64,000 bases of DNA from Spirochaetaceae bacterium (GTDB lineage Bacteria > Spirochaetota > Spirochaetia > Treponematales > Rectinemataceae): NCBI GenBank assembly GCA_025355995.1, contig JANXYQ010000136.1, positions 1 to 64,000 on the forward strand, read 5' to 3'. The stretch's first letter is position 1; each line of letters opens with the position of its first letter. Below are positions 15,052 through 39,545 of the stretch, in pieces. The position numbers were made by a program, and so were the translations under genes. The notes under the pieces are model-generated. The model ran no database searches and was not told the origin of the DNA. It worked only from the letters and a program-made list of their open reading frames with translations.

Positions 15052-15582
15052 ATGGAAGACGACAAGGGCGTGATCATCTACACGGACGGCGGCTGCTCGG
15101 GCAATCCGGGCCCGGGCGGCTGGGCCTTCGTCATGAGAATCCCGGCGAGCCGGGATTCTCATGACGCGCTCAACCCTGGGGTTGAGCGATTAAATCGGGA
15201 CCTACCGGCGAACCACGAGATCCTCGGCTCGGGCGGCGAGGCCAATACCACCAACAACCGAATGGAGCTCAGGGCGGTCATAGCCTCCCTCGAGGAGGCC
15301 GAGCGCCGGATCGCGGGAGCGATCCCCGCGCCCCCCGTCGTCGTGTACACGGACTCGCAGTACGTGAAGAACGGCATCGGCTCCTGGATGGCCAATTGGA
15401 AGCGCAACGGTTGGCGCACGGCCGACAAGAAGCCGGTGAAGAACAAGGAACTTTGGGAGGAGCTCGACCTCGTCAACGCCCGCGTCAAGCCGAAGTTCCT
15501 CTGGGTGAAGGGCCATGCCGGAGTGGACGGCAACGAGCGCTGCGACGCCCTGGTGCAGGTGGAGATCGCGAAATTCAGATAG
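15052..15582 (+). CDS. rnhA: Ribonuclease HI with in-frame palindromic insertion
   Basis: 176 residues. All RNase HI features are visible: TDGGCSGNPGPGGW with the first catalytic Asp near residue 8, TTNNRMEL with the catalytic Glu72, YTDSQYVKNGI with the third acidic residue, and WVKGHAGVDGNERCDALV with the flexible-loop His and final Asp. It would degrade RNA in RNA/DNA hybrids. Between GPGG and TTNN there are 42 residues against about 20 in the E. coli enzyme. The extra length coincides with two abutting perfect palindromes (15129-15188, 60 bases, 20 codons) that keep the frame. The insertion lies in the beta1-beta2 loop, away from the active site, so the enzyme can plausibly still work. 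Confidence 0.92.
   Translation: MEDDKGVIIYTDGGCSGNPGPGGWAFVMRIPASRDSHDALNPGVERLNRDLPANHEILGSGGEANTTNNRMELRAVIASLEEAERRIAGAIPAPPVVVYTDSQYVKNGIGSWMANWKRNGWRTADKKPVKNKELWEELDLVNARVKPKFLWVKGHAGVDGNERCDALVQVEIAKFR
15129..15166. repeat. 38-bp perfect palindrome inside rnhA
   Basis: Arms of 18 bases (15129-15146 and 15149-15166) are exact reverse complements around a 2-base centre GA. The left arm reads CGTCATGAGAATCCCGGC. The repeat lies wholly within codons 26-39 of rnhA and abuts a second palindrome. Confidence 0.9.
15167..15188. repeat. 22-bp perfect palindrome inside rnhA, adjacent to the first
   Basis: CGCTCAACCC (15167-15176) and GGGTTGAGCG (15179-15188) are exact reverse complements around TG. 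It starts at the base after the 38-bp palindrome ends, so together they form a 60-bp double hairpin translated in frame. Confidence 0.9.
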
Positions 15583-15669
15583 GGGGGGGCCTGTCACGTA
15601 GGTCGCGTACCTCGCTCCGCCTAGATTCATGAGGGCTCCGCGAAGCCCGCGACCTACGTGACACCCCCC
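15582..15669. repeat. Long inverted repeat at the 3' end of rnhA
   Basis: TGTCACGTAGGTCGCG (15592-15607) pairs perfectly with 15648-15663. A run of eight G before the left arm faces six C after the right arm, extending the stem. The 40-base loop contains a smaller GGGCT/AGCCC hairpin. It follows the rnhA stop and has no T-run, so it is not a classical intrinsic terminator. It may be a mobile palindromic repeat or an RNA-stabilising stem. Confidence 0.8.
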
Positions 15670-16166
15670 GCCTTACCGCAGTTCTCAACAGTGTCGCTGC
15701 ACTCACCCGATTCACGCCGCGTTCCTTTCATTGTTGCGATCACACGCGCCCCGAGCCGGGGAGTTCCGCGATTGAGGCATCGTTTTTACTAACGACCACG
15801 CTACCCCCACACGATAATTGATTCTATCTAGAGGAACTTGACTGACCAGTCGGCCGTATGCTAGTCTCCGGTTCGATGAAACTGACGGGCATGGATGGCA
15901 TGGGCCGCTCCTTCTCGGGAGCCGCTTCGGCGAATCGGGGATCTAGCCCCCGCGCCTCCTCCGGCCCGGCCCTCCGCTACTCCTTCCTCTATTTCTTCTT
16001 TTATTCCTATCGACGCTCCTTCGCCGTCCGGCCTGGCGAAGCGAGCGCGTAAATCCTTCAAGGCCGGCGACAACGAAGCCGGCTTGGTCCCCGCTTCAAT
16101 CCACAGCAGCCGCTCGCATTGGAAGGACGTCGCCGAATGAGCGATTCCGTTCGGACATATAGGGCC
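15670..16166. other. Intergenic stretch without a supportable gene
   Basis: About 500 bases between the rnhA inverted repeat and the end of the convergent aminotransferase gene. Short open frames exist on both strands (for example 15876-16052 and 15895-16140) but have no ribosome-binding site and biased composition. Visible signals are a palindrome GACTGACCAGTC (15840-15851) preceded by TT, resembling a TetR-type operator, and a smaller inverted repeat around GCCGGC near 16060-16082. No tRNA or riboswitch was recognised. It is the largest non-coding gap in the window. Confidence 0.6.
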
Positions 16167-17461: not shown

Positions 17462-18382
17462 ATGAACAACCTGAAGCTGACCGGCAGAAAGCCCGGCGGA
17501 GCGCGTAGCGTGATCGAGGTCGGGGGCGTGCGCATTGGCGAGGAATTCGTCGTGATCGCCGGCCCCTGCTCGGTCGAGACCGAGGAGCAGACCATCAGGA
17601 CGGCGGTGGCCGTCAAGGAGGCGGGGGCCAAGATGCTCCGCGGCGGGGCCTTCAAGCCCCGGACCTCGCCCTACGCCTTCCAGGGCCTCGGCCTCAAGGG
17701 GCTCAAGATCCTCGACAAGGCCAAGCGCGAGACGGGCCTGCCCATCGTGACCGAGGTCGTCGACACGCGCGACGTCTCCTGGGTCGGGGAATACGCCGAC
17801 ATCCTCCAGATAGGCGCGCGCAACATGCAGAATTTCTCCCTCCTGCGCGAGGCGGGCAAGTCGGGCAAGCCCATCCTCCTCAAGCGCGGCATGTACTCCA
17901 CGCTCGAGGAATGGCTGAACTGCGCCGAGTACATCCTCGCCGAGGGCAACGACAGGGTCATCCTCTGCGAGCGCGGCATCCGGACCTTCGAGACCTATAC
18001 GCGCAACACCCTCGACCTGAGCATGGTCCCGGCGGTCCACGCCGAGAGCCACCTGCCGATAATCGTCGATCCCTCGCACGGGACGGGCATCCTCTACATG
18101 ATCGAGCCCATGAGCCTGTCCGCGGTCGCGGCGGGCGCCGACGGCCTGGAGATCGAGGTCCATATCGACCCGAAATCGGCCATGAGCGACAAGGACCAGC
18201 AGCTCACCCCCGAGGCCTTCAAGGCCTTCATGCGGCGCGTCGACCGGTTGCGCGAGTTCATGGCCGAACGCGCCATGGCGGACGCGGACGCGGCCTCGCG
18301 CGGCGATCCGCCTCCCGCCGGCCAGGGCTCGAAGCCGAAAGCCCTGACTCCTCGCGATCCTTTCGCGGACGCGATGGACTGA
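17462..18382 (+). CDS. aroF: 3-deoxy-7-phosphoheptulonate (DAHP) synthase, type I-beta
   Basis: 306 residues. Catalyses condensation of phosphoenolpyruvate and erythrose 4-phosphate, the first shikimate step. [26 protein letters not shown], the metal and PEP-binding region [24 protein letters not shown] and IVDPSHGTG mark the KDO8PS-like I-beta class. Only about 30 residues precede the barrel, so there is no N-terminal ferredoxin-like or fused chorismate mutase regulatory domain. A roughly 35-residue polar tail at the C-terminus is unusual. GGGAG lies 9 bases before ATG 17462. It heads the operon aroF-aroB-aroC-pheA-tyrA. Confidence 0.95.
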
Positions 18383-39020: not shown

Positions 39021-39545
39021 CTAGAGATTCGTGATCCGCGACGAGATGCCCTTGCGCCAATCCTTCTTCTCGCCCTCTTTCTCCCACTGAATGCGGCGCT
39101 TGACCGAAAAGGCGCTCTCGTTCTTGTCCTTGAATTCGACTACGGCGAAGGATCCCGACCCGAGGTAGACCAGCTTCTCGGTCGCCGCGAGGGTTTCCGA
39201 GGCGCTCACGCGCTCCAGTACGCAATCGAAATGGGCAGGCTCTCCCGTGTCCCTGCTTGCGGAAACGGCGGTCGCGAGATCGTAGACGGGCTTCCCGCAA
39301 AGCGGGCACAGGGGCATGTCGCGGGGGTCCTGGGCCTGGCGGGGAAGGCTGCCGGGGCTCGATTCGGCGTTCGGCGCGCCGCCGGCAGCGGCCTCTCGCT
39401 GGGCGTCGGGTCCGCTTGGCCGCGGGCTGCCCTCGCGGGGCCCGCCGTGGCGGGCCCTGAATCCTCGATGCCTGCCGCCGCGCCGCCCCTGGCCCTCTTC
39501 GGGACCCGCTTTTCCGCCAGTATTTTCCGGTCGCTCGTCGGCCAT
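39021..39545 (-). CDS. Putative zinc-binding protein of unknown function
   Basis: 174 residues. The first 75 or so are low-complexity and rich in Gly, Arg, Pro and Ala. The C-terminal part has a probable zinc knuckle, CPLCGKPVYD then HFDCVLER, followed by LVYLGSGSFAVVEFKDKNESAFSVKRRIQWE. The zinc ligands would be the two Cys of CPLC, His and Cys of HFDC. Proteins of this kind are found in spirochaetes near yraN but I do not know a function. ATG 39545 has GGAG seven bases upstream and TATAAT occurs on this strand near 39610. Confidence 0.7.
   Translation of the reverse strand: MADERPENTGGKAGPEEGQGRRGGRHRGFRARHGGPREGSPRPSGPDAQREAAAGGAPNAESSPGSLPRQAQDPRDMPLCPLCGKPVYDLATAVSASRDTGEPAHFDCVLERVSASETLAATEKLVYLGSGSFAVVEFKDKNESAFSVKRRIQWEKEGEKKDWRKGISSRITNL

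Follow-up and report, generated by a model that had tools for sequence, protein, structure and literature searches.

Template switching acts at quasipalindromes in E. coli, as reporter studies have shown (PMC7202029), and template-switch insertions can create perfect stems in RNA (PMC8794818). The rnhA gene in the stretch of DNA analysed here (64,000 nucleotides of a spirochaete-group genome, hereafter the window, to which unprefixed coordinates refer) resembles these mutations in several ways: neighbouring sequence is copied in inverted form, the turn is tiny, the arms are perfect, and the change is of a kind that can add sequence. The cases in the two sources are mostly existing imperfect palindromes that were perfected, or lie in RNA genes, whereas rnhA appears to carry a compound 63-nt insertion that preserves the reading frame of a protein gene and includes 38 nt for which no source was found. 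Rickettsia palindromic elements (RPEs) are also palindromic DNA placed in frame in tolerant places of conserved genes, but they form multi-copy families of ∼150 bp (PMC10969869), and the rnhA unit is single-copy with one arm made of host sequence. GTAG/CGTC REPs (PMC3733652) are alike in size (20-40 bp) and in having CGTC at one end; the rnhA unit, however, is single-copy, its tag is paired and ancestral, and it belongs to no family. Coding palindromes in the mitochondria of Nematomorpha are perfect inverted repeats in translated genes for which template switching has been proposed, but conserved residues are encoded by both arms of those palindromes, many of which are maintained (PMC6649704), whereas in rnhA only the left arm encodes such residues. 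Template switches have also been described as a source of protein change in yeast genes (PMC8604942), through homogenisation of arms and inversion of the spacer, whereas in rnhA codons were inserted.

We examined the palindromes of rnhA in the window (Table 1). The longest is perfect and 38 bp in length (15129-15166, CGTCATGAGAATCCCGGC-GA-GCCGGGATTCTCATGACG), with 18-bp arms that are 100% complementary around a 2-bp centre, and a perfect palindrome of 22 bp (CGCTCAACCC-TG-GGGTTGAGCG) abuts it in frame. Both had been recorded in the first-pass annotation, and they were confirmed. A third palindrome, of 11 bp, was read directly from the sequence. Given the base composition of the genome (65% G+C), perfect pairs with arms of at least 18 bp and a spacer of 0-8 are expected by chance at 4e-5 per 64 kb. 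The palindrome region folds as a single strand far better than shuffled sequences (z = -7.7 as DNA, z = -6.8 as RNA), the RNA fold reaching -63 kcal/mol over 106 nt.

Table 1 Features of rnhA and of its palindromic insert, in window coordinates
Feature	Position	Strand	Basis
rnhA, RNase HI, 176 aa	15052..15582	+	Open ORF; PF00075, E 7e-40; E. coli RNase HI is the best structural match
Left arm of the 38-bp palindrome	15129..15146	+	Perfect arm; ancestral host codons ...V-M-R-I-P-A
Fold-back turn GA	15147..15148	+	Sequence
Right arm, a new copy of 15129-15146 in inverted orientation	15149..15166	+	100% complementary; no counterpart in relatives
Second palindrome, 10-bp arms, TG centre	15167..15188	+	Sequence; no copy elsewhere in the genome or in 58 relatives
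Third, short palindrome CGATT-A-AATCG	15187..15197	+	Sequence
Direct repeat CCGGCGA, copy 1	15142..15148	+	Sole direct repeat of at least 7 bp around the site
Direct repeat CCGGCGA, copy 2, putative return point to the normal template	15205..15211	+	63-nt spacing
Putative 63-nt (21-codon) insertion	15149..15211	+	Bracketing direct repeats; loop longer by 19 than in the same-genus protein and by 22 than usual

When the model of the protein was compared with known structures, E. coli RNase HI was the best match (TM 0.74/0.85), with the same fold. The loop from NPG to NNRMEL has 46 residues here, against 27 in the same-genus genome (G001) and 24 in 75 of 108 homologues, and is thus 19-22 residues longer than in the same-genus protein and in almost every one of the 108 homologues; the earlier estimate that the protein is ∼22 residues longer was therefore right. 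In the AlphaFold2 model (mean pLDDT 90) the extra residues fall between the strand at 20-30 and the strand at 55-66, that is, in the beta2-beta3 turn and not in the beta1-beta2 loop to which the first-pass annotation had mistakenly assigned them, and the confidence of the model is lower at the inserted block (block mean pLDDT 61 and 69). In three distant homologues the same loop has 37-39 residues made of unrelated sequence, so the loop tolerates changes in length. The inserted codons keep the frame without stops and the catalytic motifs are intact, as had been claimed.

Alignment of rnhA with its relatives showed that the same-genus gene lacks the insert, as do homologues across the family, and the derived state is confined to one lineage when compared with the same-genus genome and the 108 homologues. 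Against the same-genus gene, GGCTGGGCCTTCGTCATG is identical in both and is followed by AGAATCCCGGCG opposite CGCCTAACGGCG. The left arm starts with conserved host codons (CGTCATG = ...V-M; TTCGTCATG is identical in the same-genus gene), its residues V-M-R-I-P-A align with V-M-R-L-T-A of the same-genus protein, and 13 of its 18 bases are identical to those at the corresponding positions of that gene. For the right arm, neither the aligned same-genus gene nor other relatives have a counterpart. The left arm thus belongs to the ancestral coding sequence of the host, and the palindrome formed in place; a pre-formed element would have carried both arms, and because only the right arm is new, the flank appears to have been copied backwards in situ. 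Roughly half of the first palindrome consequently predates the insertion, and the insert extends to about 15204-15211. The insertion proposed earlier holds as a lineage-specific event in a tolerant loop, but the inserted sequence is not the 60-bp palindrome block. The same-genus comparison draws on one genome, about 85% identical in aligned DNA, and the exact sequence before the insertion is therefore a reconstruction, which forms no stable hairpin at the turn.

We searched the 4.5-Mb draft assembly (138 contigs) for further copies. The 38-bp unit has no second copy there; outside its own palindrome the closest genome match to a 17-base arm has two mismatches (one place) and the others have three, and BLASTN with 99 bases against the genome returned only the locus itself plus weak, chance-level matches. 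The block at 15167-15204, which comprises the 22-bp unit and its 3′ extension, is likewise unique in the genome, and a search of 58 relatives that allowed up to three mismatches did not find the 22-bp palindrome. These 38 nt lie between the inverted copy and the putative return point and are largely self-palindromic, and within the 64-kb window only words of chance length match them. Because the 38 nt have no match beyond such words in the window and none elsewhere in the genome, one simple switch cannot account for the whole insert. The direct repeat CCGGCGA brackets the insert at a spacing of 63 nt, or 21 codons, and without these 63 nt the loop would have 25 residues, near the usual length in the family.

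We consider that the rnhA insert probably arose by template switching during replication (or repair), through fold-back recopying of neighbouring bases. The new arm is complementary at 18 of 18 bases to adjacent pre-existing sequence, the change is found in a single lineage, and there is a local duplication at the return, as in template-switch insertions. We infer the copying steps and their order as follows. While rnhA was being copied, a nascent strand ending ...CGTCATGAGAATCCCGGCGA would have turned back and been extended by an 18-nt inverted copy, templated by the bases it had just incorporated or by the sister strand. At least one further fold-back would have produced the 22-bp palindrome, and possibly the 11-bp palindrome too, before synthesis resumed on the proper template where CCGGCGA begins, repeating those 7 nt. 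An exit at ...CCGGCGA, a fold-back and a return at CCGGCGA fit the direct repeat with its 63-nt spacing. The switching may have been intrastrand or to the sister strand, in replication or in break repair, and in rnhA it would have occurred more than once. The net gain of 63 nt, 21 codons without a stop, would have fallen in the beta2-beta3 turn, which is exposed in RNase HI, and been tolerated there; its translation would simply lengthen the loop by ordinary residues (about 33-53). Neither a mobile element nor a function for the inserted residues need be assumed. No Ku domain was found in the assembly, which makes classical bacterial end joining improbable, and Ku-dependent end joining was rejected as the source of the insert.

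The first-pass annotation had proposed that a mobile element inserted in rnhA and is now translated. An RPE-, REP- or MITE-like palindromic element would be in keeping with the in-frame site in a tolerated part of the protein, a hallmark of Rickettsia RPEs (PMC10969869), with the 7-bp direct repeat at the ends of the insert, and with the CGTC at which the palindrome begins, which tags one REP superfamily also reported from Spirochaetes (PMC3733652). However, of the features of RPEs only the in-frame insertion was found: there is no repeated family, and the palindrome was not inserted whole. CGTC here pairs with GACG and coincides with host codons, whereas the tetranucleotide tag of CGTC/GTAG REPs is unpaired, and the high copy number of REPs is absent; we rejected the CGTC-REP reading because the tag is host codons. 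A single copy is also not the multi-copy family with terminal inverted repeats expected of a MITE. Furthermore, an 864-kb sample held no other CGTC-tagged stem-loop, a search of the genome for a Y1 transposase gave one fragmentary match only, and the palindromes in rsmE and in a kinase gene described below differ in sequence from those of rnhA. Copy number and the origin of the left arm both fail to fit the RPE and REP families. The unit occurs nowhere else in the genome, which speaks against a mobile element, and the excess length is not ancestral; the claim of a mobile element is therefore unsupported, and we regard one as unlikely.

Chimeric fold-back reads built into the contig would be another explanation, since the assembly is a draft and chimeric by-products are known from strand-displacement DNA amplification (PMC9484634). 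Such an artefact of assembly or amplification is somewhat more unlikely still, because the 63 nt keep the frame without a stop, in a loop of variable length among homologues, and two further in-gene cases likewise keep the frame and fall at variable sites. It is very improbable that the stem, being near the start of the rnhA mRNA, is a selected hairpin that governs translation or decay: the RNA fold is very stable and the arms are still perfect, but the hairpin is conserved in no relative, recent origin explains the perfect arms, and an Rfam search of the palindrome region returned no family over threshold. The best hit of that search was Termite-flg (28.7 bits against a cut-off of 40), which we rejected as antisense, below the cut-off and hairpin-driven. 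Separately, a same-order relative has a Termite-flg RNA (RF01729) at G036:C11:78912-79032 that scores above the cut-off (48.7 bits).

We also scanned stretches of the genome totalling 1.85 Mb (41%) for palindromes. Thirteen perfect in-gene palindromes with arms of at least 12 bp passed a codon-usage filter that missed rnhA itself; base composition predicts about three in all the sampled DNA, an expectation that ignores codon bias and could be raised by it. Over 0.38 Mb sampled from relatives no genic palindrome of at least 12 bp passed the same filter, a difference that is not significant at that sample size. Two in-gene palindromes with arms of at least 14 bp could be compared with relatives, and both lie on lineage-specific in-frame insertions. 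In rsmE (G000:C79:18270-18301, L241), a perfect 32-bp palindrome with 16-bp arms (CGCGAGGCTTCGCCGC|GCGGCGAAGCCTCGCG) sits exactly on a 10-residue in-frame insertion that is absent from the nine aligned relatives; the same-genus relative lacks it, and either arm may be the older. In a sensor histidine kinase gene (G000:C1:7945-7976, L265), a perfect palindrome with 14-bp arms (GACTCCGTTCCGGC-GGTG-GCCGGAACGGAGTC) marks an in-frame insertion of about eight extra residues that the same-genus relative lacks. Its left arm starts with the codons for the conserved D-S of ...AEMIRDS, common to G001, at its turn lies a hairpin-forming TCCGGC-GGTG-GCCGGA, and an 18-bp direct repeat lies at 30-nt spacing. 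The rnhA, rsmE and kinase palindromes are unrelated to one another in sequence; over the three loci we observed an inverted copy of host sequence (in rnhA and the kinase), a tiny turn, a direct repeat and an in-frame gain limited to a single lineage. We count the rsmE and kinase genes as two independent cases in favour of template switching.

A further in-gene palindrome, in lipA (L300), is a candidate case: it has 14-bp arms and an 8-nt centre, and four extra residues adjoin it in comparison with solved homologues. In a sufC-like gene (L231), a palindrome with 12-13-bp arms crosses what appears to be conserved sequence of that family, has no obvious insertion and is probably due to chance. 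Those strong hairpins outside genes that we examined in the sample are terminator-like or belong to a parS-like site. The latter is a 36-bp palindrome around TGTTCCACGTGGAACA (G000:C25:39320-39355, L183) beside the apparent end of gyrA; to judge from the encoded peptide there is probably a second site near 39277, and the locus is perhaps near the origin.

Directly 3′ of rnhA (window 15582-15726) lies an intergenic repeat of ∼140 bp with a long hairpin. Its second copy (G000:C11:113356-113475, L229) is 80% identical, and the outer arms differ between the copies yet are largely complementary in each (TGTCACGTAGGTCGCG/CGCGACCTACGTGACA vs. TGTCTCGCGAATCCGCG/CGTGGTTCGCGAGACA); judged from sequence, the repeat resembles a structured RNA or a dispersed hairpin element. 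Further downstream, a small ORF (15876-16052, +) ends in a Phe/Tyr-rich run (RYSFLYFFFYSYRR...) and overlaps a CTTCGCC...GGCGAAG hairpin. The same block is present in G001:C148, G004:C60 and G005:C105, and in G004 and G005 it immediately precedes a gene for DAHP synthase, placed as an aromatic amino acid attenuator would be. In this genome a convergent aminotransferase gene lies between the block and the DAHP synthase gene at 17462.

The mutation type itself is already known; what is of interest is that in one bacterium it has repeatedly become fixed, adding residues to loops. In rnhA the ancestral arm is still recognisable, so that a perfect coding palindrome can be seen to have arisen in place and to have lengthened a conserved enzyme; for coding palindromes, such an origin is an alternative to selfish palindromic elements. 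With three cases in one genome the process becomes countable, and its rate, strand preference and turn sequence would be measurable from close strains. We raise only tentatively, as a possibility we doubt, that this lineage has unusually active fold-back copying, by which palindromic codons are repeatedly added in frame to the loops of proteins. If so, an effect on proteins like that of RPEs would come about without a mobile element, and "orphan" coding palindromes elsewhere may share that origin.
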